This document shows positions 9,455 to 45,160 of a stretch of 64,000 bases of DNA, one piece after another. The position numbers and the translations under genes are program-made. Origin of the DNA: Miscanthus floridulus (lineage: Eukaryota > Streptophyta > Magnoliopsida > Poales > Poaceae); NCBI RefSeq assembly GCF_019320115.1, contig NC_089581.1, positions 71,097,155 through 71,161,154 of the forward strand. Direction: 5' to 3'. Positions within the stretch are counted from its first letter, which is position 1; every line of letters begins with the position of its first letter. The notes beneath the pieces are model-generated. The model saw nothing but the letters and a program-made list of their open reading frames with translations. It searched no databases and was not told the DNA's origin.

Positions 9455-10085
9455 AACAGAGACTTTGCCGAGTGCAAAATTCTTTGCCGAGTGTCAAAAA
9501 TCGGGTACTCAGCAAAGACCTTCTTTGCCGAGTGCTGCACTCGGCAAAGAATTGCACTCGGCAAAGAGTTCTTTGCCGAGTGCCGGGCACTCGGCAAACA
9601 CGGACACTCGGCAAAGGACTTCTTTGCCGAGTGCTAGACTCTCGGCAAAATTTCTACACTCGGCATAGGCTGCCCGCGAAACAGCGTTCGATCACGGCCT
9701 TTTTTGCCGAGCGCCTACTGTTAGGCACTCGGCAAAGATTTGTTTTTTTTAAAAAAAAATTCTTTGCCGAGTGCGCCAGATCTGGCACTCGGCAAAGATT
9801 TAATTTTTTTTAAAAAAAATTCTTTGCCGAGCGTCTCAGATCTGGCGCTCGGCGAAGAATTTTTTTTTAAAAAAAATTACTTTGCCGAGTGCCCCTGGCA
9901 CGGCACTTGGCAAAGATTTAATTTTTTTTATAATTTCTTTGCCGAGTGTTCCTGTGGATGCACTCGGCAAAGAGTAATTTTTTTTAAAAAAATTAAAACA
10001 CTCTTTGCCGAGTGCCTAATGTTTGGCACTCGGCAAAGACACCCTTTGCCGAGTGCCATACGCCAGCACTCGGCAAAGTATTTTT
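9455..10085. repeat. CACTA-1 left subterminal repeat array
   Basis: About a dozen copies of TTTGCCGAGTG alternate with its inverse CACTCGGCAAA. Each pair brackets a short variable loop and is separated from the next by T-then-A-rich spacers. Such repeats are where the TNPA-type protein binds in En/Spm elements. Open frames crossing this array only reflect the repeat and are not genes. Confidence 0.9.
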
Positions 10086-10089
10086 TGTT

Positions 10090-10990
10090 TTTTTTGTTTT
10101 TGGCCTCTAATTTTTTTGTGCAGCCCTTTTAAAGCACCAGAAACTCCTAGTTACAATTTGGAGATTTTTTGTGGCTTTTTGTTATATTTAGTTACTTTAT
10201 TTTGTTTACTTGAATTTTTCCGAAAATTAGAAATTTGAACTGCACGTGGTACGAATAATGGAGTTTAATGATTCGAAAATTGATAGTCATGTTAGTGAGT
10301 GTTGTGAGAGGCCGTATCCAGGAACGGATCCAAAATTTTGGACATCTTGTTCGCGAAACATGTCCGCGAAATTGCGTGTGAAGTGTTTTTAAATTCTATA
10401 AAAAGCAAACGAAGTCCAAAAATCATGAAACTTGTTGAGATGTCGTGATATCATATGTGGAGGCTATGATAAAAATTTCAGAAGATTTCGTGCACGTTGT
10501 CACGTACGATGCTTACAAACCAGGACATCTCTACGTGTGATATCAGATATCACACGTAGAGATGTCCTGGTTTGTAAGCATCGTACGTGACAACGTACAC
10601 CAAACCTTCTCAAATTTTTATCATAGCCTCCACATACGATATCACGATATCTCAACAAGTTTTATGATTTTCGGACTTCGTTTGCTTTTTATAGAACTTA
10701 AAAACACTACGCACGCAAGTTCGCGGTCATGTTTTGTGAACAAGATGTCCGAAATTTCGGGTTCGTTCCTGGATACGGCCTCACACTACACTCAGTAACA
10801 TGACTATCATTTTTTGAATCATTAAATTCCATTATTCGTACCACGTGCAGCTCAAATTTATATTTTTCGAAAAAATTCAAGTAAACAAAATAAAGTAACT
10901 AAATATATCAAAAAGCCACAAAAAATCCTAAACTTCTAATTAGGAGTTCCTGTTACTTTAAAAGGGCTGTACAAAAAATTTGGAGGCAAA
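10090..10990. repeat. long inverted repeat (hairpin) in CACTA-1
   Basis: Two arms of about 440 bp face each other around 10546. The inner ~49 bp of each arm pair perfectly (arms 10497-10545 and 10547-10595, including CGTACGATGC, GGACATCTC and CGTGTGATATC). Outer parts pair imperfectly: the AGTTACTTTATTTTG block at about 10190 matches CAAAATAAAGTAACT at about 10885. A homologous hairpin occupies the same relative place in CACTA-2. No coding potential is seen. Confidence 0.88.
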
Positions 10991-10999
10991 ATACAAAAA

Positions 11000-11230
11000 A
11001 AAATAAAAAAAACTTTGCTGAGTGCCAGGGCATGGCACTCGATAAAAGGAGTCTTTGCCAAGTGCTAATAATAAAGCACTCGACAAAGAGAATTCTGAAT
11101 TTTTTTAAAAATTTTCCTCTTTGCCGAGTGCCTCTACAGGGACACTCGGCAAAGACATTTAAAAAAAAATCTTTGCTCTTTGCCGAGTGCCTCTTGATGC
11201 GGCGCTCGGCGAAGGGGCGGGTGGGGACAT
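11000..11230. repeat. inner subterminal repeats of CACTA-1
   Basis: Further TTTGCCGAGTG/CACTCGGCAAA pairs, partly mutated (TTTGCTGAG, CACTCGATAAA), between the hairpin and the GC-rich block. Confidence 0.8.
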
Positions 11231-14395: not shown

Positions 14396-15430
14396 TTTTG
14401 GGTCACTTTGCCGAGTGCCATGGTCACAACACTCGGCAAAGCTGGCAAAATGGGCCACCAGAAAGCAGATTTTCCAGCTTTGCCGAGTGCCTTTGGGTTT
14501 GCACTCGGCAAAGAATTTTTTTTTAAAAAAAATAAAAAATCTTTGCCGAGTGCCTGGAGGGTTGGCACTCGGCAAAGAAAATTTTCAAAAAAAAAAAAAG
14601 CTATTTGCCGAGTGCCTTCCGGGTTGGCACTCGGCAAAGAATTTTTTTTAAAAAAAATAAAAAATCTTTGCCGAGCGCCTGGCGGGTTGGCACTCGGCAA
14701 AGGAAATTTTCAAAAAAAAATAAAAGCTCTTTGCCGAGTGCCTCACGGGTTGGCGCTCGGCAAAGATTTTTTTTTAAAAAAATAAAAAATCTTTGCCGAG
14801 CGCCTCTGGTTGCCACTCGACAAAGATTTTTTAAAAAAAAAATAAAAAATCTTTGCCGAGTGCCTCACGGGTTGGCACTCGGCAAAGAAAATTTTCAAAA
14901 AAAAATAAAAGCTCTTTGCCGAGTGACTTCCGGGTTGGCACTCGGCAAAGAATTTTTTTTTTAAAAAATAAAAAATCTTTGCCGAGCGCCTGGCGGGTTG
15001 GCACTCGGCAAAGAAAATTTTCAAAAAAAAATAAAAGCTCTTTGCCGAGTGCCTCACGGGTTGGCACTCGGCAAAGATTTTTTTTTTAAAAAAAATAAAA
15101 ATCTTTGCCAAGCGCCTCACTGGTTGGCACTCGGCAAAGATTTTTTTTAAAAAAAAATAAAAAAATCTTTGCCAAGTGCCTACAGGGTTGGCACTCGGCA
15201 AAGTGACCGTCAACGGGACCGGCGCCGTGACGGTAGCTTTTCTTTGCCGAGTGTCCCCGGGGCACTCGGCAAAGCCTTTGCCGAGTGCCCGATAAAATAC
15301 ACTCGGCAAAGAGGGCTTTGCCAATTTTTTGCCGTGTGTTCTTTGCCGAGTGCCGCACTCGGCAAAGGCTTTGCCGAGTGCAATCTGACATTTGCCGAGT
15401 GCCTCAGGCACTCGGCAAAGAACCTGAATC
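14395..15430. repeat. CACTA-1 right subterminal array with higher-order structure
   Basis: From 14479 to about 15200 there are 12 units of about 62 bp. Each is TTTGCCGAGTG, a short loop ending GGGTTGG, CACTCGGCAAAG, and an AT-rich spacer. Spacers are of two kinds, a T-run/A-run form (A) and an AAAATTTTC form (B), in the order A B A B A A B A B A A. Loops and GAGCGCC variants repeat with the same 5-unit period, so 14542-14851 and 14852-15167 are successive copies of a ~310-bp block. Confidence 0.85.
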
Positions 15431-15861
15431 CAGTAGTGTACAATGCTTAACACTAGGGTGTTATAGCTTTTTCCAGGAGGATTGGTACATATATATAGGG
15501 ATGAGAACCTCCTACCTTAACATCAACTAGCAATATGGTACTAATTGATGTTGTACCTCCCACCTCTACTCATGAGCTTAAACATTAAAATCCATTAGAG
15601 AACACAAGTATTAGGCATTTAAGATTTATTAGAATTTCTTCATATGGATTTAGGAGAACTATCCATATAAATTCTAACACTTAGACCTGCTCTATTACTA
15701 GCATGTCGTTGTCTCTGTTGGTTTGAACCCGTACATGTCGCAGCCTACGCTTGGCATGGAGATGGAATTCAGGAAGTGGGTGTCTCCCGTGCAACTCACG
15801 ACAAGAGTTCTTGTTGACTTAACCCATGCGTGGAGTGCAGCGTAGTATCTCCTGGTATGTT

Positions 15862-29224: not shown

Positions 29225-30090
29225 TGGATCCAGCAATGGCGATCATAGTGTGGTGATCCACCGTGTTGTGAGGGAGAGCGGCGGCAATGGGCTGTACCCG
29301 TTGCTGACCAAGACCAACTACTATTCATGGGCAGGGCTCATGAGGTTGAAGCTGCAGGCGAGAGGCCTATGGACAGCGGTGAACATCGACACCATCGACT
29401 ACACCGCCAATCGCAATGCTATGGAGGCTATCACGCCTGGGGTGCCTCCGGAGATGCAAGGGGCGATCGCGAACAAGGCGGCTGCCAAGGTCGCATGGGA
29501 CGCGCTCAAGAAGACGCACCATGGCGTGGACCGGGTGCTCCTGGCGAAGGCGAACACGTTGCGGCGCAAGTTCGACTCGCTCAAGTTCGAGGACGATGAA
29601 TCCGTCGATGACTTCGGCATCCGCATCATCGACCTCACCAACCAGCTGGAGGTCCACAACAACGGCTACACCGAGCCAGAGATCGTGCGTAAGTTCCACC
29701 AGGCGACTCCACCAAGGTCCTCACAGATCGTGATGGCGATCGAAACACTTCTCGATATCAATACATTGTCTATTGAGGAGTTGATCAGGAGACTCAAGGC
29801 GGTGGAGGAATGGTACGAACTCGGCGACGATGGCAGCGGCAGGGCATCCACTGGTCTGAACCTGACCGAGGATGAGCTCGTGGCGTGTGTCGCATTGCGG
29901 CTCCAGCTCTCTGGCATTGGAGGCTCGAGCGGCAACTGCACGTCGTCGGGCTAGGGCCATGGCCACGGTGGCGAGCGCGGCCAAGACACTAGTGGCTCAA
30001 GTCTATCGATGGGAGCGGCAAGGGGAAGCGCATCGCCGGCGACGAGTGCAAGTATTATGGCAAGACGGGTGACGAGATCCCAACATAGGA
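29225..30090 (+). pseudogene. Ty1/copia gag (element A)
   Basis: Copia Gag of the UBN2 type. The stretch 29250-29954 is open for 234 codons: YPLLTKTNYYSWAGLM near the N-terminus, LWTAVN, AAAKVAWDALKKTHHGVDRV, LRRKFDSLKFEDDESVDDF, and the late RLKAVEEWYE block. The natural ATG at 29225 (MDPAMA) is one base out of frame with it, and the zinc knuckle begins (ECKYYGKTGD) but breaks off near 30075. No pol follows on this strand, so the element is truncated and non-functional. Confidence 0.85.
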
Positions 30091-30898: not shown

Positions 30899-32811
30899 CC
30901 CTCCTGCAGTCTCTACTGGGAGATGATCGAACATTGAGACTGGATCAAAAGTTGAGGAAGACAGCAGTTGGTAACCCCTTAGTAAATATGTCGGCATACT
31001 AAAGGGATGTAGGAACATGTAGAACCCGCACAGCACCAAGGGCCACACGCTCCCGGACAAAATGGATATCGATTTACACGTGTTTGGTCCTTTGGTGATG
31101 AACTGGGTTTGTTGACAAATACACGGCACTGATGCTGTCACAATAGATAAGAGTAGCACGTGGTAAAGGACGATGGAGCTCACCCAAGTGTTGGTGAATC
31201 CAACAAGCCTCAGCCATGGCATTGGCAACACCTATTCGGCCTCAGCACTAGACCGTGAGACAGTGTGTTAGCGCTTGGACGACCATGATATAAGATTATA
31301 GCCAAGAAACACACAATACCCAGAAGTAGAGCGACGGGTATCCGGGTAGCCTGCCCAATCAACATCTAAGTAGATGATCAAATCATGTGACCGGCTGTGA
31401 GAGAGAGTAAGACCGTACTCCATGGTGCCTTTGATATATCGCAGAATGCGTTTGATGAGAGCAAAATGGGACACACAGGAGTCATGCATATACAAGCAAA
31501 CTTGTTGGACGACGTGAGTAATGTCTAGCCGTGTGAGCGTCAAGTATTATAACGCCCTAGTAAGACTGCGATATAGAGTAGGATCGGCAACCGGTGGTCC
31601 ATCTTGGGAGGACAACTTAAAATGAACCTCAACCGGAGTTTGGCATGGATTGCATGATGACATATTTGCCTTGTCCAAAATTTCAGCAGCATATTTAGCT
31701 TGAGAGAGGAACAGACCTGAGGATGACCGCTTGGCAGAAACACCCAAGAAGTAATGAAGATTACCAAGACCAGTCATGGCAAATTCTTGCTGCAGGGAGC
31801 CAATAATATGTTGAAGAAGGTGGTGGGATGAAGCCATCAAGATGGTGTCATTCACATATAATAGAAGATATGCGACATCCATCCCATGAGTGTAGATGAA
31901 AAGCGAGTTGTCACTTTTAGAAGCCCAAAAACTAATTGTGGTGATGAACGCTTGGAAGCGGTTGTACCAAGCTCGTGGGGCTTGTTTGAGGCCATAGAGA
32001 GCTTTGTTGAGCTTACACACATAATTGGGACGAGCCAGATCAACAAACCCAGGAGGTTGTTGGCAATAAACAACTTCATTAAGAGTGCCATGCAGGAATG
32101 CATTTTTGACATCCAATTGATGAATAGGGCAATCACGGGAGACGGCATGCGGCAATACTCTGTGAATGGTAGTTGGCTTAACCACGGGACTGAATGTCTC
32201 ATCATAATCAAGACCATGTTGTTGAGAAAATCCTCGCACAACCCAATGAGCTTTGTAACGAGCCAGAGAGCCATTAGCATTGTGCTTGTGACGGTAGAGC
32301 CATTTTCCTAAAACAATATTAGTATGTGGTGGCGGTGGCACAAGGTCCCATGTTTGATTAGCAATGAGGGCACCATATTCCTCCTCCATGGCATGCTTCC
32401 AATTTGTATCAAAACGAGCACCAAGATATGTTTTTGGAAGCAAGCTGATATCTATGAAAGCCATGGACAAATTGCAGTATGCCTTCCCGTCATGTTGTCA
32501 TGGTTGGCTGATGCCAGACTTGCCCCTGGTTTGCATGGCATGTTGGTTGATGGTGGGAGGGACAGGCACAAATAGGCGCTTTGGATGAGCACATAGCAGC
32601 TGGGATGATAGCTGTGGTGGAGCCGGAGGGCGCAGGCGGACTTGGTGGAGCAGCAACAGCTGGTGAAGCGTCGGCAACATGCCATGTGCGGGGAGGCAGG
32701 GGCGGGTCTCATGGGGCTGGTGGAGGTCGCCTGGCCTGTGGATCTCATGCGACCACGACCCCCACTGACAGCGCAACGGGGGGTGGGGCCTGTAGCGACG
32801 GCGGGTGGCAC
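30898..32811 (-). pseudogene. Ty1/copia RT and RNase H (element B), inactive
   Basis: Reverse transcriptase plus RNase H of a copia polyprotein. Open stretch 31547-32470 has W-HAMEEEYGAL, KWLYRHKHNANG, HQLDVKNAFLHG, NKALYGLKQAPRAWYNRF and the catalytic box as LLLYVNDTIL, where the first Asp of YVDD is Asn (residue 207 of that stretch). The segment 31268-31543 continues with VQQVCLYMHD, RILRYIKGT, the RNase H block DVDWAGYPDTRRSTSGYC and LISWSSKR. A proline-rich linker is at 32452-32811. Gag, protease and integrase are missing. The YVND change plus truncation make it dead. Confidence 0.9.
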
Positions 32812-35955: not shown

Positions 35956-36116
35956 TGGCCGGTGCGACTCCCGGCAGCATGGGCGAGGTGAGCAGGCCGA
36001 GGAGGAACCAGTTGAGGCTGAGCAGTGCGACGGCATCGCCCGCGGGGCGGCACCCACGACACGTGCCTCCTGGACACGCCCACGACGGCGAATAGCCCCG
36101 CCATCAGCGGCAGGCA
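35956..36116 (-). pseudogene. host-like ORF, middle piece (2 of 3)
   Basis: The minus strand reads LPLMAGLFAVVGVSRRHVSW directly from the AGGCA duplication, then in the next frame ALLSLNWFLLGLLTSPMLPG. Both are hydrophobic, suggesting two membrane segments. The frame joins without a break to 41649 onward (VAAVAWSGDAPC) if the composite retrotransposon and one AGGCA copy are removed. Family not recognised. Confidence 0.4.
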
Positions 36117-36531
36117 TGTTAGTCTAGGATCTCGATTACGCGCTGTATGTGGATTGGATCAAACAAGAATTGAAGATGAACACAAGCTTTTTCAGGAGGA
36201 CGACAGGGTGACAGCCCCCCTTTTTGGCTTATGATAATTTTGAGTACAATGCACCTAACCGGCTTACTAAGTGTACCCTCACACCTCAATGACCCAGCTA
36301 CATATACCTGCAACTAGAGCCACGCAACTCTGAGCAACAACCGCTCAATCACACGCTAAACTTAGGGAAAAACAAACAATGCAGATAAACCGGAACGTGG
36401 GCGCGGCCATCGCGCCCAGCAACTGCCTCCCCGCGATCACCGCGTCCAGCATCCGCTCCTTCCTTATTTAGCCGCGTCATGCCACGTCCCAATCCATGTT
36501 GGTGCTCCTTGTGTCCAGGATTACGCCAACA
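36117..36531 (-). repeat. 3' LTR of the copia part, 415 bp
   Basis: On the minus strand it begins TGTTGGCGTAATCC and ends GATCCTAGACTAACA at the AGGCA duplication. It follows the polypurine tract TTAGGGGGGAGTA, which overlaps the stop codon of the polyprotein. No second copy of this LTR exists in the window. Confidence 0.88.
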
Positions 36532-36543
36532 TACTCCCCCCTA
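36532..36543 (-). promoter_or_regulatory. polypurine tract of the copia part
   Basis: On the minus strand TAGGGGGGAGTA directly precedes the LTR; the TAG is the polyprotein stop codon (36541-36543). It primes plus-strand DNA synthesis. Confidence 0.8.
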
Positions 36544-39500
36544 AGCCTGGCACACACCGAGGTCTCTGACACCGATCAGGTGACTCATGATGCCTAGCTT
36601 AACTGCTGGCATTGCCTTAGTCAGCACGTCGGCCTTCTGCTCCTCAGTTCCCACTCTCTTCACCACAATCTGCCCCCTCTCAATACATTCCCTGATGAAG
36701 TGATACTTCAAATCAATATGTTTACTTCTTCCATGGAACACAGGGTTTTTCATAAGGGCAATGGCAGACTTGTTATCAACATAGAGAGTTACTGCCTTTG
36801 GCTCCTTCCCAGTGATTTCACTAATCAAGTTTCTCAGCCACAAAGCTTGCTTTGCTGCAGCTGTGGCAGACACAAACTCAGATTCACAAGAAGACAGGGT
36901 TACTGCTTTCAGTTTCTGTGAACACCAGGTGATCAGATTCTCATTCAAGTAGAATGCCATCCCTCCTGTGCTTCTCCTTTCCACTGAATCCCCAGCATGA
37001 TCGCTATCACTGTATCCCTCTAACTTATCTGCACTCCCACCCTGGACATACACCAGCCCAAAGTTCAATGTGCCTCTCAAGTATCTCAGGATCTGCTTTA
37101 CTGCCTTTGCATGCATAACTGTGGGCTTCTCCATGAATCTACTGCAGACTCCAACTGAATAAGCTAGGTCTGGTCTGCTGTGCAGCAAGTACCTCAAGCA
37201 CCCAATAACTTTTCTGTACTCTGTTGCATTCACCAGCTTTCCTCCCTCATCTTTGTTCAGAATACTACCAGGTTCCATAGGGAACTTGGTTGGATTGCAG
37301 TCACCCATCCCAAATTGCATCAAGACTTTCTTTGCATAGCCACTTTGTTTTACAGTGATGTGATCAGAATTCTGCTCTACCTCTATGCCAAGGTAGTAGC
37401 TCAAGAACCCAAGGTCTGACATCTCAAACTCTGACATCATCTGCCTTTTGAAGGCATCTATCTGATCTGCATTTCCCCCAGTCACAATGATATCATCAAC
37501 ATACACTCCTATGATGACAGTGTCTGACCCTGTTCCTCTAGTGTATACTGCTTGCTCACTCAAGCATCTTCTGAAATTCAGCTTCTTCAGGCTTTTATCA
37601 AGCTTGATATTCCAAGCCCTGGGAGCTTGCCTAAGTCCATAAAGAGCCTTACTCAATTTTAACACATGCTGCTCTTTACCCTTGACTGCATAGCCTTCTG
37701 GTTGAGAAACATAGACTTCCTCCTCCAATTCCCCATGCAGAAAGGCTGACTTGACATCTAAGTGGTGGATTTTCCATCCATTGTTTGCTGCATAAGCCAA
37801 TAGTAGCCTGACAGTGTCCAGCCTGGCAACAGGTGCAAAAACCTCCTCAAAATCAATGCCTTCCTTCTGAACATATCCCTTTGCTACTAGTCTAGCCTTA
37901 TGCTTAACCACTTCTCCCTCTGAATTTCTTTTCAATTTATAGACCCACTTTAAGCCAATGGGTTTCTTCCCTGCAGGTAGCTTGACCAGCTCCCATGTCT
38001 CATTTTTGATAATGGACTGCATCTCCTTGTCCATTGCATCAACCCAATCTTGATGACTTACAGCTTCTCTGTAGCAAGTTGGCTCACCTGTTTCTACTAA
38101 CAGAGCCTCAACATCAGAATCAACTAATTCAACCTCAGTTGTATTATCATACAAATCATCAAGTGTTCTGAATCTCATTGGTTCACTACTCTGAACTGTT
38201 GAAGGTGTGGAACCATTGAGCATAGGTATTGAGTGATGTGGAGTAGTAAACCCAGCTGCTAGAATTTCTCCCTGACTGCCTGTCTGATTTGAAACTGCAG
38301 CTGGTGACTGTGCCCAGTCTGTCACTCCATCATTCTGAACTTGTTCATTTGCAGCAGCCTGTTCAGTTGGAACTGACTGCTCCTGCTGAAACTCCTCATC
38401 TCCATAGTCACTCACATATCCCGTTTCTAGCTCAACATCAAAATCAGTTCTGATTTCACCATCAAACACTGATTCCCAGTTCCATTTTTCTTTTTCTTCA
38501 AACACTACATCCCTGCTCACAATAATCTTCTTTGTTTCAGGATTGTAGAGTCTGCATGCTTTGCTCCCTTCTTCAGCACCAAAATAAACCAATGGTTTGC
38601 TCCTGTCATCGAGCTTCTTTGGGTGTGGTGTGGCTACTCTGGCATGAGCTACACAGCCAAACACCTTCAGATGTCCAAGACTTGGTCTTCTACCATTCCA
38701 AGCCTCATAAGGAGTTTTATCTCCCATAACTTTGGTAGGCAGTCTGTTAAGAAGGTACACATAGTGTCTGACAGCTTCACCCCAGAACTCTCCTGGCAAC
38801 ATCATACTCTTCAGCAATGCTCTAGTCATATCCAGGACAGTTCTATTTCTTCTCTCAACTACTCCATTCTGCTGTGGAGTGTATGGAGCTGTGAACTGTC
38901 TCTTAATCCCAGCTTGTTCACATACACCTGCAAACACACCAGCTAGGAACTCTCCTCCTCTATCAGACCTGAGTGTCTTGATCCTGCACCCAGTGAAGTT
39001 TTCCACTTCTGCCTTAAACTTGACAAACATGTCACATGCCTGATCCTTGTTCTTCAGGAAATACACCTGCATCCATCTTGAGCAGTCATCAACCAACAGC
39101 ATGAAATACCTATTTCCTCCAGCTGTTGGTGGGGTGATTGGTCCACACAGATCAACATAAACTAAGTTAAGCTTCTCATCTGATTGCCACTTTGCAGCTT
39201 TGGGAAATGCAGCTCTAGTCTGTTTAGCCGACAGACAGTCACTGCATACCTGTTCTGGATGCCTAATATCTGGCACACCAGTGGCCATCTCCTTACTAAC
39301 TAACTGTTTCATTGATCTGAAATTGACATGTCCAAGTCTGCCATGCCAAAGCCATGCCTGATCATCTATCTTTGCCATCAGACATTCTGGTTCCACAGTA
39401 GTCAATTCTATCTTGTACATTCTATTCAAGGTTCTAGGTACCTTCATGATCAACCTAGCAGATTGCTTATCTACTACTTCCAGCATATCATCATCAAGTA

Positions 39501-40827
39501 AAATTCTGTGACCCATCTCAGTCAACTGACCTAGACTCACAAGATTACTTCTAAGCTTAGGTATGTAGTAAACATTAGATAGCACCCACTGATCACCTAG
39601 TTTACCTTGAAACACAATTGTACCTCTACCAAGAATTTCAACAGTGGAATCATCACCAAACCTCACCTTGCCATGAACTGCTCTGTCAAGATCTCTGAAC
39701 TTCTGCAGATCACCTGTCATGTGATTGCTAGCACCATTGTCAAGATACCACCATTTGCCTGTTGATTCATTCCCTTCAGACAAAAGCAACTCAGGAACAA
39801 CTCTGGCCTCATTCAGATATATCCTCTGAACTTTATCTGCCTGACAGCACTGTAGCTCGTCCGACAATACAGTTTCTGCCAGCAAAACTGCCTGTTCCTT
39901 CTCATCTCCTTTCTGTCCTTCTCCCTTCTTCTCTCCAGGACATCGATTGGCATAATGCCCATACTGGTGACATTTGAAACACTTGATGTGACTCTTGTCA
40001 CTCTTCCCGGTGTCTCCTCTACCAGCACCACCACGGCCGCTGCTTCCACCGCCACGACCTCGGCCACGACCTCTCCCGCCGTTGCCTCCTCTCTCTTTCC
40101 CAGAAGAGTCACCACCAGCTCCCCGCTGTCTAGCTTCCCACTCCGCCTGCGTGAGCAACACCTGCTGATCTGCCTTCGCACCACGGTTAGACCGCCGTGT
40201 GCGCTCCTCAAACGCCTTCAGACGCCCCACCGCCTCATCAAACGCCAACGTCTTCAGATCGTAGAATTGCTCGATGCCTGCCACCACGGTGAGGAACCGA
40301 TCTGGCACAATGTCGAACAATTTCTTCACCAACGCCGCATCATCAAGGCTCCCCCCCAAGCTGTTGTACTTAACTGACAATGTTGACAGCTTCCCAACAA
40401 CTTGGTCCAGCGGATCTGCGTCCTTCATCTCGAGCGCATCAAATTCGCTCTTCAACGTCTGTAGCCGCGCGTCCTTGACTCGATCAGCACCCACGAATCT
40501 GGCCTTCAGTGAGTCCCAGACCTCTTTGCCGGTTTTCTTCTTGGCCACCTGCATCAGGATGTCATCAGGGATACACTGAAGCAGGTTGGCCTTGATCTTC
40601 CTATCCTTCGCCTTGATCTTCTCCGCCTCGGCCTCGGACGGCGCCGCCGCATCCGGATCTGGCTCCACAACCTCCCACTCCTCCCGATCTTCCATGATCG
40701 CCTGAACACGAATGCACCAACTGGTGTAATTCGTGTTCGTCAGAGATGGATACACCTGACGCGCTTCCCCGCCGCCGCGCGCACCATCCCCGCTCCCGCC
40801 GCCGCTTCCTCCGACGACAAGCGCCAT
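36541..40827 (-). CDS. Ty1/copia Gag-Pol polyprotein, intact, 1428 aa
   Basis: Complete single ORF for capsid, protease, integrase, reverse transcriptase and RNase H of a copia element. Domains in order: UBN2-type gag (about 25-215); basic Gly/Arg-rich linker (240-275); CCHC knuckle C283, C286, H291, C296; protease DNGAS at 363-367 (Asn where DSGA is more usual); integrase zinc region H495, H500, C528, C531; integrase triad D559, D622, E658 with the expected spacing; RT with D1024 in HHLDVKSAF and YVDD at 1109-1112; RNase H with D1274, D1276, E1317, D1351, D1400. The start is the ATG 36 bases inside the PBS. No frameshift or stop, so the protein may be active. Lineage within copia (Tork-like is my guess) is unverified. 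Confidence 0.95.
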
Positions 40828-40862
40828 GGACCTAATCTATGAGTGGCTCCGCGTGTAATCAA

Positions 40863-40875
40863 GGCTCTGATACCA
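40863..40875 (-). promoter_or_regulatory. primer binding site of the copia part
   Basis: The reverse complement is TGGTATCAGAGCC, identical to the PBS of the SMART part at 41319-41331. Two bases separate it from the minus-oriented 231-bp LTR. Confidence 0.88.
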
Positions 40876-40877
40876 AT

Positions 40878-41108
40878 TGTTGGAACCGGTGGTGACCACC
40901 GAGTTCACGATCTTGGAGCTGGCTTGCAGCCGGCCCGACTCGTTACCACGAGCCTGCGCTCCCACAGGTCCCAGGTCCACCGGAGCTACAACATATAAGG
41001 CCTTGGGCCTTCTCAACCCAAAAGACTAGCCTGATAGGTGAGGGTTCTCCCGCCTTATATGTTATGCTCCCCCACCATCGCTACACGATGTGGGACTAAA
41101 CCCCAACA
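40878..41108 (-). repeat. SMART-type 231-bp LTR in place of the copia 5' LTR
   Basis: On the minus strand it begins TGTTGGGGTTTAGTCC and ends CACCGGTTCCAACA. It has the same length as and near identity with the plus-oriented LTR at 41418-41648. It abuts the copia PBS, where an LTR matching 36117-36531 would be expected. Confidence 0.88.
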
Positions 41109-41174
41109 ATCTCCCCCTTAGTCACACATCGGGGTGCCCCCGCCATATGTGACGCTCGAGATTTTTTTTATCGG
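41109..41174 (-). mobile_element. truncated SMART interior, inverted
   Basis: On the minus strand it carries the last part of the SMART interior (from about CCCGATAAAAAA through GACTAAGGGGGAGAT). It ends at an inverted junction with LTR sequence near 41175, where GGG is shared by both sides. Confidence 0.8.
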
Positions 41175-41648
41175 GGGTTGAGAAGGCCCAAGGCCTTATA
41201 TGTTGTAGCTCCGGTGGACCTGGGACCTGTGGGAGCGCAGGCTCGTGGTAACGAGCCGGGCCGGCTGTAAGCCAGCTCCAAGATCGTGAACTTGGTGGTC
41301 ACCACCGGTTCCAACAATTGGTATCAGAGCCTATGGTCAGAAAAGCTAAACCCGATAAAAAAAATCTCGAGCGTCACATATGGCGGGGGCACCCCGATGT
41401 GTGACTAAGGGGGAGATTGTTGGGGTTTAGTCCCACATCGTGTAGCGATGGTGGTGGAGCATAACATATAAGGCGGGAGAACCCTCACCTATCAGGCTAG
41501 TCTTTTGGGTTGAGAAGGCCCAAGGCCTTATATGTTGTAGCTCCGGTGGACCTGGGACCTGTGGGAGCGCAGGCTCGTGGTAACGAGTCGGGCCGGCTGC
41601 AAGCCAGCTCCAAGATCGTGAACTCGGTGGTCACCACCGGTTCCAACA
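41175..41648 (+). mobile_element. SMART/TRIM-like small LTR element, 5'-truncated
   Basis: Partial LTR 41175-41316 (from GGGTTGAGAAGG), PBS TGGTATCAGAGCC at 41319-41331, an interior of under 100 bp with no coding capacity, polypurine tract CTAAGGGGGAGAT (41405-41417), and complete LTR 41418-41648. Small elements of this kind are non-autonomous and need proteins of another LTR element; the shared PBS makes the adjoining copia a possible source. Confidence 0.85.
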
Positions 41649-42060
41649 AGGCATGGGGCGTCGCCTGACCACGCCACCGCGGCCACTGCAAGCGACATGC
41701 CCGAGTCGGCACGTTTCGCGCCGGCCTCATCTCGCGCCGCTGCCGCCGTGTCTTCCTCTCCCCGCCATCGTTTCGGCTGCTTCTTCTCAGGCTCGGACGC
41801 GCGGCTGCCGCCGTTGCCAAGATGAGCCACCGCCGTGGCTGGTCCCACGGGCTTGTCCCCCATGGACTTGCCCTGGTGCTTAGCGTGCTCTGCACTGACC
41901 TCGTCAGACGGGACGCCGACGCCGATCGAAGGGCCTCTAAGGCGAAGCCGGCGGCGCCAAGAGAGGGGTGCGCGGGGAAATCGCCTTGGCCAGCGCATGC
42001 CGAGCGAGCATGACTGGCAAAGTCTGGCGACCTAGAAACTAGGATAGCACGTGGGTCTCG
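41649..42060 (-). pseudogene. host-like ORF, N-terminal piece (1 of 3)
   Basis: A minus-strand frame open from about 41998 reads a basic, Ala-rich N-terminal region (EKKQPKRW, RDEAGAKRADSG) and then MSLAVAAVAWSGDAPC, running into the AGGCA duplication. Across the empty site it continues as LPLMAGLFAVVGV at 36116 without a frame change. GC-rich composition and continuity across the TSD suggest a real coding exon, but I do not recognise the protein. It could also be gene sequence carried by an older element. Confidence 0.4.
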
Positions 42061-43614: not shown

Positions 43615-43930
43615 CGAAGACGGCTTCTTTGCCGAGTGTCACGAACTTTGCCGAGTGCTTTTTATCGGGCACTCGGCAAAGAAGCTGTTTGCCGAGTGCC
43701 AGAGAGAAAGCACTCGACAAACAACTGACACTCGGCAAACAATAACACTCGACAAAGGGGTGGTTTGCCGAGTGTCAGGATGGCTCGGCACTCGGCAAAC
43801 TAGAATACTCGGCAAAGGGCCGCCTCCGTTAACAGCCGGCAGGCGCCGTTAATCTTTTGCCGAGTGTCTTATCCTGACACTCGACAAAGAGGCTCCTTTG
43901 TCGAGTGTTATTTTTTTTGACACTCGATAA
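43615..43930. repeat. CACTA-2 left subterminal repeats
   Basis: TTTGCCGAGTG and CACTCGGCAAA pairs in the first 320 bp, several decayed to CACTCGACAAA. The binding region expected for the TNPA-like product. Confidence 0.88.
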
Positions 43931-44840
43931 ACCATATTTTTTCACTTTTGACCTCGAAACTTTTTCTGTAGTCCTCATACAATACCTGGTACTCCATGTT
44001 CCAATGTGGCACATTTCTCAGACTTGTTCTATATTTCTTTAATTTATTTCATTTAATTGAATTTTCTTGGATAATTCAAATTATAACTACTAGTCATTCG
44101 AATAATGAAAAAATGAATGAAAAAATGATATTAATGTTATTTAGTATAATATGAGGCCGTATCTAGGAATAGACCACAAATTTCGAACATCTTGTTCACG
44201 AAACATGACTACGAACTTGCGGTCGAGTTGTTTTTAAATTCTATAAAAAACAAACGAAGTTCGAAAATCATAAAACTTGTCAAGATGTCATGATATCATA
44301 TGTGGGGGCTGTGATAAAAAATTGAGAAGGTTTCGCGCAAGTTGTGATGTACGATGCTTGCAAACCGAAGAATCTCCGAAGAAGTTTCATGATTTCGTGA
44401 AGAAGCCGACGAGGTGGTAAGCATCGTACGTGACAAACTTGTGCGAAACCTCCTCAAATTTTTATCACAGCCTCCACATATGATATCTTGACATATTGAT
44501 AAGTTTCATGATTTTCGGACTTCGTTTGTTTTTTTATAGAATTTAAAAACAACTCGACCGCAAGTTTATGGTCATGTTTCGTGAACAAGATGTTCGAAAT
44601 TGGTGGTCTGTTCCTGGATACGGCCTCACATTATACTAAATAACATGAATATCATTTTTCTATTCATTTTTTTCATTATTCGAATGACTAGCAGTTATAA
44701 TTTGAATTAACTAAGAAAATTCAATTAAATGAAATAAATTACAGAAATATAGAAAAAGTTTGAGAAATGTGCCACATTGGAACATGGAGTACCAGGTATT
44801 GTATGAGGACTATAGAAAAAGTTTAGAGGTCAAAAGTAAA
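43930..44840. repeat. long inverted repeat (hairpin) in CACTA-2
   Basis: Arms of about 430 bp around a loop near 44380-44410. Matching blocks include CAATACCTGGTACTCCATG (about 43980) with CATGGAGTACCAGGTATTG (about 44785), and CGTACGATGC words near the loop. The sequence is homologous to the CACTA-1 hairpin (GAGGCCGTATC, ACGAAACATGAC, AACAAACGAAGT in both), but the loop region differs. Confidence 0.88.
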
Positions 44841-45160
44841 AAAAATATGGTTTGCCGAGTGTCAAAAAATGACACTCGGCAAAGGAGACTCTTTGTAGAG
44901 TGTCAGGATGGCCGGCCCTCGGTAAAGATTTTTAATTTTTTTTTTAAAAATCCCTCTTTGCCGAGTGCCAGCCCGGTTGGTACTCGACAAAGAATTTTAA
45001 AAAATTAAAAAAATACTTTGCCGAGTGTCAGATCAGGGCCACTCGGCAAAGAATTTTTTTAAAAAAAAAACCCTCAGGTGGCACTCGGTAAAGAAGTAAA
45101 AAATATTAAAAAAAACCTTTGTCGGGTGCCAGATCGGAGGCACTTGGCAAAGGGGGATTT
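44840..45160. repeat. CACTA-2 inner subterminal repeats
   Basis: Second set of TTTGCCGAGTG/CACTCGGCAAAG pairs with T/A-rich spacers, between the hairpin and the GC block. Confidence 0.8.

Follow-up and report, generated by a model that had tools for sequence, protein, structure and literature searches.

A copia retrotransposon joined at the primer-binding site to a miniature element of another family within a single target-site duplication in Miscanthus floridulus

How can a single retrotransposon insertion end in the long terminal repeats (LTRs) of two different families? This question is raised by a composite element in a 64,000-nt stretch of the Miscanthus floridulus genome (contig NC_089581.1, positions 71,097,155 to 71,161,154; hereafter, the window), in which an intact Ty1-copia gene body is joined to a terminal-repeat retrotransposon in miniature (TRIM). 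The composite, at 36117-41648, is bordered on both sides by the perfect 5-bp target-site duplication (TSD) AGGCA (36112-36116 and 41649-41653), and both of its outer borders are U5 ends, copia CTAACA at 36117 on the left and TRIM CCAACA at 41648 on the right. Both outer ends are canonical LTR termini, where two equal 5-mers would be expected by chance, by plain arithmetic, in 1/1024 of cases. The likely answer, as we argue below, is one integration of a linear DNA in which a TRIM complementary DNA (cDNA) and a copia cDNA were already joined. The features on which this argument relies are the following, in window coordinates:

36112..36116, no strand: left TSD AGGCA, read from the sequence; the paralogous empty site L080 has a single AGGCA
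36117..36531, minus strand: copia 3' LTR of 415 bp, starting with TGTTGG at 36531 and with its U5 end CTAACA at 36117, about 92% identical to the two identical 404-bp LTRs of a native copy, L009
36541..40827, minus strand: uninterrupted copia gag-pol open reading frame (ORF) of 1428 aa, from the ORF list, with Pfam domains above cut-offs
40862..40875, minus strand: primer-binding site (PBS) TGGTATCAGAGCCT, 14 nt common to native copia and TRIM, which holds the TRIM-to-copia switch, from the comparison with L009
40878..41108, minus strand: full TRIM LTR (segment M) occupying the position of the copia 5' LTR, 99.6% identical to 41418-41648, with LTR position 38 as the sole difference
41109..41175, minus strand: 67 nt of the TRIM internal region, from the side of the polypurine tract (PPT), 67/67 identical to 41351-41417
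41173..41177, no strand: inverted junction inside a run of five Gs (three in each parent), from the alignment; a 32-nt pattern across it matches once in the genome
41175..41316, plus strand: TRIM LTR truncated by 89 bp at its start (segment P, LTR 90-231), with three differences from the right LTR, at 171, 183 and 208
41317..41417, plus strand: complete TRIM internal region of 101 bp, with PBS and PPT, from the sequence and the internal-region probe
41418..41648, plus strand: right TRIM LTR (segment R), with its U5 end CCAACA outermost, from the sequence and the LTR probe
41649..41653, no strand: right TSD AGGCA, from the sequence

Read in the copia sense (minus strand, right to left), the TRIM half comprises the TSD, antisense R, the antisense internal region, antisense P, the G/C-run junction, the sense end of the internal region with its PPT, and sense M, followed by the PBS, the copia leader and 1428-aa ORF, the copia PPT, the copia 3' LTR (36531-36117) and the TSD. 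The region contains inverted arms of 299 nt, and the copia LTR matches only itself within the window. A first-pass annotation had already described this structure, with the AGGCA duplication, the 415-bp LTR on the left, the intact copia ORF, a minus-oriented 231-bp LTR standing where the copia 5' LTR should be, and two outer U5 ends, all of which are seen in the sequence.

The copia part has the elements that define a Ty1-copia retrotransposon: gag, an integrase ahead of the RVT_2 reverse transcriptase, a PBS and a PPT. The ORF, searched against Pfam as two pieces, contains Retrotran_gag_2, gag_pre-integrs, rve, Pol_BBD, SH3_retrovirus and RVT_2, all above cut-offs. Only the 3' LTR of the composite's copia is its own, whereas the native copy L009 has its own LTR at both ends. 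When the genome (2.68 Gb) was searched with the 415-bp LTR, giving 40 first-look candidates that were all scored, identity above 90% was found, besides the window's own copy, at two places only, the two LTRs of L009, on the same contig. The search for copia copies with this LTR at both ends, suggested by the first-pass annotation, has thus returned one close copy. L009 is a standard copia copy, with the TSD GTCAC, identical 404-bp LTRs and a 1428-aa ORF free of interruptions. When the leader and the start of gag were used as the query, L009 was recovered at 99% and the next match at no more than 83% (40 of 134 candidates scored). Since both searches give one other close copy, L009, the composite's copia family is nearly single-copy in this genome. 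The composite and L009 differ by 26 substitutions over the first 4250 aligned columns, whereas the copia LTR at 36117-36531 differs from the LTRs of L009 by clustered changes and a 13-bp gap, so that this LTR may itself be recombinant.

The comparison with L009 also locates the change from one family to the other. The native copia reads CTGACA-TC-TGGTATCAGAGCCTTG and the TRIM CCAACA-AT-TGGTATCAGAGCCTATGG, and the composite reads CCAACA-AT-TGGTATCAGAGCCTTG. Because it has the U5 end and the AT of the TRIM, followed by the TGGTATCAGAGCCTTG of the native copia, the switch took place within 14 nt, TGGTATCAGAGCCT, the extent of exact identity between TRIM and L009 at the junction; the next best match between TRIM and copia is one of 21 nt at 81%, with an E value of 1.5. 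The PBS had been described as common to both families over 13 bases, and it is indeed shared, with 14 nt as the length of exact identity to L009. Further genomic copies of the exact composite, which had been proposed as a check, would be revealed by its two junctions: with up to three mismatches allowed, the genome has one match each to a 36-nt pattern spanning the PBS fusion and to the 32-nt pattern spanning the inverted junction. An exact 28-nt pattern, consisting of the TRIM U5-PBS followed by a non-TRIM base, has 82 genome matches, with GCCTT only in the composite. Six of the other matches were fetched, five of them being variants of the TRIM internal region (L088-L092) and the sixth, L093, sharing only the U5 end and PBS, with no TRIM LTR match upstream; no helper gene was seen upstream or downstream of L093. 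Further fusions may be present among the remaining 75 matches.

The small element itself measures 231+101+231 bp and has the short LTRs, non-coding internal region, PBS, PPT and 5-bp TSD (the last from the TSDs of family arrays) of a TRIM. It had been labelled as SMART-type, a name that does not suit its LTR or its total size: SMART is 292 bp long with 85-bp LTRs (PMC3281118), which rules it out by size against LTRs of 231 bp. The maize element Wukong has 532 bp, with two 230-bp LTRs and a 72-bp internal region (PMC4528315). Compared by size only, the LTRs of Wukong and of this TRIM agree (about 230 bp) and the internal regions measure 72 and 101 bp; in size, the small TRIM is nearer to Wukong than to SMART.

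The TRIM segments of the composite also carry a record of the molecules from which they were copied. M and R have one difference in 231 LTR positions, at position 38, where R carries the rare base T, found in 2 of 149 other copies, and their 67 shared internal nucleotides are identical (67/67). At LTR positions 171, 183 and 208, R and M both have the haplotype TCC (3/149 other LTR copies) and P has CTT (1/149); positions 171 and 183 vary within the family, with CT as the most frequent pair, and CTC is present in 73/149. Duplicates were removed from the 149 copies by means of their 60-bp flanks, so that a few at locus edges may count twice. On the basis of these haplotypes and of the near-identity of M and R, the latter two look derived from one molecule, as the copying route proposed below requires, and P from another TRIM RNA, a pattern that also fits the copying of M from the strand that became R. 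At the rate commonly used for grass LTRs, 1.3e-8, one difference in 298 nt would correspond to roughly 0.1 million years, a very uncertain figure that depends on a single substitution.

What did the site look like before the insertion? The joined flanks (200+200 nt) were aligned to paralogous stretches of the same genome, three of which (L080, L076 and L079) run uninterrupted through the insertion site and have no TRIM there. L080, with 80% identity, has a single AGGCA and reads CAGCGGCAGGCATGG, and L076 and L079 are 90% and 85% identical to the joined flanks.

Other members of the TRIM family show how often such arrays are bordered in the same way. The TRIM probes gave 1266 (LTR) and 919 (internal region) first-look candidates, of which 40 were scored for each probe, and 60 loci were cut out, resulting in 45 distinct arrays, a sample biased towards the copies most like the composite's TRIM. 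Direct arrays make up 34 of the 45, and 11, the composite included, are partly inverted: eight with U5 ends outward, one with U3 ends outward, and two mixed. For a TSD control, the composite, one of whose ends is copia and not TRIM, and five arrays cut by locus ends were set aside, leaving 39 complete arrays, and the expectation was taken from 1482 mismatched pairings of left and right borders. An exact 5/5 TSD was found in 21/39 (0.29 expected), and a TSD of at least 4/5 in 26/39 (4.1 expected). Exact TSDs also flank five of the nine other complete inverted arrays (L041, ATGGC; L042, ACTGT; L043, GCGGG; L047, GGTTC; L075, TAGTA), three of which, L042, L043 and L047, combine them with the U5-outward architecture. 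As exact TSDs lie far above the expectation from mismatched pairs, the complex and inverted arrays of this family have often integrated as one piece, several of them by two U5 ends.

Some stretches of this family have features of their own. Approximately 300 bp of non-TRIM sequence stand between internal parts of the TRIM array L053 (about 1180-1490; C9:117400903 region), flanked by an apparent single duplication, GAGAAC, and possibly captured during copying. In L041, near 1400, and in L068, near 2173, the U3 end (CCCCAACA) of an inverted TRIM LTR runs directly into the AT and PBS of the next unit, and these joins look as if the switch had used the short inverted ends TGTTGG/CCAACA. At C14:54861700-54870800 (L088-L091), four stretches of a diverged TRIM subfamily lie within 9 kb, with GCCGC/GCCAC after the PBS and with LTR and internal region repeated in each stretch. 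A different sequence, at C8:7011000-7012700 (L093-L095), has the U5 end and PBS of the TRIM (CGGTTCCAACAATTGGTATCAGAGCC) with no TRIM LTR match, and all three downstream frames contain stops.

The single TSD, the paralogous empty sites, the comparison with L009, the switch inside the PBS, the junctions matched only once and the likeness to L042, L043 and L047 lead us to the joining of TRIM and copia before one U5-U5 integration. That the two cDNAs were fused before integration, and integrated by two non-partner ends, had been proposed in the first-pass annotation, and the TSD, the empty sites, the PBS switch and the unique junctions bear it out. Whereas the fusion before integration is well supported by these comparisons, we infer the fold-back route and the order of the copying steps. 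Minus-strand DNA of a TRIM, primed by a transfer RNA, would move to a second TRIM RNA with an intact 5' end, pass through the internal region and PBS into the U5-R of this second RNA, and stop near its 5' end, at LTR position 90. At the G/C run, the 3' end of this strand would then change template, in the simplest case by folding back on its own strand, and copy the PPT-side internal region, the full LTR and the PBS. Second-strand transfer is known to pair two intermediates whose 3' ends are complementary precisely over the PBS. Here, the new 3' end, equivalent to plus-strand strong-stop DNA, would anneal through the PBS to the 3' end of the copia minus-strand cDNA, in an intermolecular second-strand transfer followed by extension through copia to its U5 end. 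Upon second-strand synthesis, an integrase would join both U5 ends to the target.

The expected product of these steps has the copia gene body behind a TRIM promoter LTR and non-matching R regions at its two ends, because of which the composite is probably unable to copy itself normally. The first base of segment P lies 40 nt downstream of where a TATA-like motif starts, as would suit the 5' end of an RNA. For the run of five Gs at the junction, against three in each parent, two origins would fit, the addition of extra bases at the capped end of an RNA and slippage within the run.

Several observations weigh against this account or parts of it. The distance of approximately 40 nt from the TATA-like motif to LTR position 90 is somewhat long for an RNA 5' end, and the snap-back is unproved, as an intermolecular switch or the end-joining of two TRIM cDNAs would give the same product. 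The empty sites are paralogues with 80-90% identity, and not an allele or an orthologue, so that they show the pre-insertion form and not the history of the composite locus; moreover, in L076 and L079 the site reads AAGCA rather than AGGCA, with a 15-bp gap immediately to its left. A misassembly is excluded by indirect evidence only. Among the family arrays, an exact TSD is lacking in 18/39 complete arrays and in four of the nine other complete inverted ones (4/5 in L035; 3/5 in L057, L058 and L068). Other inverted arrays join elsewhere, at LTR 127 (L035), at LTR 177 (L055) or at internal sites (L042, L047 and L057), so that position 90 in the composite may not mark the start of an RNA, and a switch at this RNA end is rejected as a rule for inverted TRIM arrays in general.

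Where the two cDNAs were joined is a question of its own. The shared particle of the first-pass annotation is possible, but host alternative end-joining factors use PBS microhomology for second-strand transfer, according to a 2025 review (PMC12786077), so the cDNAs could have met elsewhere. A variant of the account above, tentative in our view and differing from it in the place of joining, would have cDNAs from separate particles joined by this host pathway at the PBS microhomology before integration. Both the 14-nt PBS junction and the short G-run at the inverted junction are compatible with end-joining, while the R, M and P haplotypes fit copying steps within reverse transcription, a pattern not decisive between the two places; particle and host end-joining are not separable from the sequence as sites of the PBS transfer. 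A history of two events is improbable. In it, an inverted TRIM array would come first, and gene conversion or DNA recombination would later put copia in the place of its left part; the PBS offers 14 nt of homology for this, AACA is common to the two U5 ends, and LTR elements do recombine after insertion (PMC1950507). However, the composite ends on the left precisely with the copia LTR terminus, beside the TSD, which would call for a second exchange within 4 bp, the paralogous sites have no TRIM, each junction is matched once in the genome, and flanking TSDs are taken by Sabot and Schulman as the mark of a single integration (PMC1950507). A nested or two-step insertion can be rejected in view of the same left border and paralogous sites without TRIM, and of no second TSD being seen.

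Still less probable is an assembly artefact joining two loci through inverted repeats of 230-300 bp. The region does contain the 299-nt inverted arms and the TRIM is highly repeated, but an artefact would not be expected to yield matching outer TSDs, uninterrupted paralogous sites and a change exactly inside the PBS. In addition, polymerase chain reaction (PCR) and sequencing have confirmed TRIM arrays of one family in maize, the arrays shown including an inverted pair (PMC4717578). Autointegration of one cDNA into another is the least credible of these origins, and it can be rejected on the ground that neither internal junction is an LTR terminus: at one, the minus TRIM LTR continues into the AT and PBS native to it, and at the other, internal sequence joins LTR position 90. 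Autointegration is known to give inverted products in retroelements.

Does the joining of these two cDNAs before integration make copia the helper of the TRIM? Both families' LTRs start with TGTTGG, and the integration used the CTAACA end of copia and the CCAACA end of the TRIM. Because a single integration used an end of each family, one integrase accepted both, and at most it can be said that one integrase handled them in one event. Copia as a helper of the TRIM is possible, and a third element could have been the source of the proteins. The stronger claim, that this copia mobilises the small element, is not supported by the searches, in which the copia family yields one other close copy and the TRIM probes 1266 and 919 candidates; near-single copy number beside a very numerous TRIM speaks against copia as the main helper. 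TRIMs are gene-less, and few of them have a known helper element; a survey of 289 TRIM subfamilies found a larger related element for 11 (PMC4717578). Fusions with an intact autonomous element would provide a sequence-based view of which elements' nucleic acids meet. If the fusion arose in a shared particle, it would name a candidate helper, and if it arose by host end-joining, it would show repair shaping retrotransposon insertions in a plant. The structure also records a series of copying errors, namely two TRIM RNAs, an inverted switch, a between-family transfer at the PBS and an integration by two U5 ends, so that the origin of complex arrays becomes testable through counts of such junctions.

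A more far-reaching proposal, which we regard as doubtful, would take the composite as a frozen intermediate of reverse transcription, formed in a shared particle where the copia reverse transcriptase carried out both the fold-back and the PBS transfer and the integrase used one end per family. Copia would then be a working helper, and intermolecular transfer with U5-U5 integration a general route to the inverted arrays of this TRIM family.

The copia fusion is the new part of this composite, since direct template-switch complexes, tandem and inverted TRIM arrays and strand-transfer recombination were already known. LTR swapping between autonomous and non-autonomous elements of soybean was reportedly described by Du et al. 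in 2010, as heritable lineages of related elements and not as one inverted composite. In grasses, complex LTR elements that carry an extra internal LTR within one 5-bp TSD have been attributed to template switches between RNAs packaged together (Sabot and Schulman 2007, PMC1950507). The composite resembles them in having integrated once, with one 5-bp TSD enclosing the entire complex, in its extra internal LTR (40878-41108) and in its two complete core sequences (36541-40827 and 41317-41417). Unlike those complexes, where two members of one family share the internal LTR and the outermost LTRs are alike, it unites two unrelated families in inverted orientation, has a 415-bp copia LTR at one end and a 231-bp TRIM LTR at the other, and switches at the PBS.

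The TRIM arrays of Gao et al. 2016, some of them inverted, also lie within one TSD, as in an inverted maize Zma-SMART pair with the TSD CTTCA, and the part of that paper available describes no copia gene body in them, unlike here (PMC4717578). Wukong, the nearest element in size, resembles the composite's TRIM in its 230-bp LTRs, its short internal region and its arrays with three to seven LTRs, which its authors read as recombination between elements (PMC4528315). Template switching has been offered as one origin of the tandem arrays of Cassandra, also a TRIM; Cassandra carries a sequence like 5S ribosomal RNA, and no copia fusion is described in the accessible part of that work (PMC7215508). 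For ONSEN, recombinant cDNA and new insertions have been reported, with many switches at the first strand transfer, and this recombination stays between members of one family, unlike the copia-TRIM composite (PMC5668417). In the literature searched, which leaves out most subscription papers, a copia-TRIM fusion at the PBS is not reported.

Elsewhere in the window, a tandem array at 14478-15203, built of units of about 63 bp, overlaps a 236-aa ORF (14743-15453), and a related sequence is present at 9703-10039. The stretches 10004-11166 and 43856-45004 are 72% identical, and near the latter, at 43647-43916, there are repeats with CACTCGGCAAA motifs, which are reminiscent of the ends of grass CACTA transposons. 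Finally, ORFs at 29250-29954 and 31547-32470 resemble, by eye from their translation, fragments of a copia gag and reverse transcriptase.

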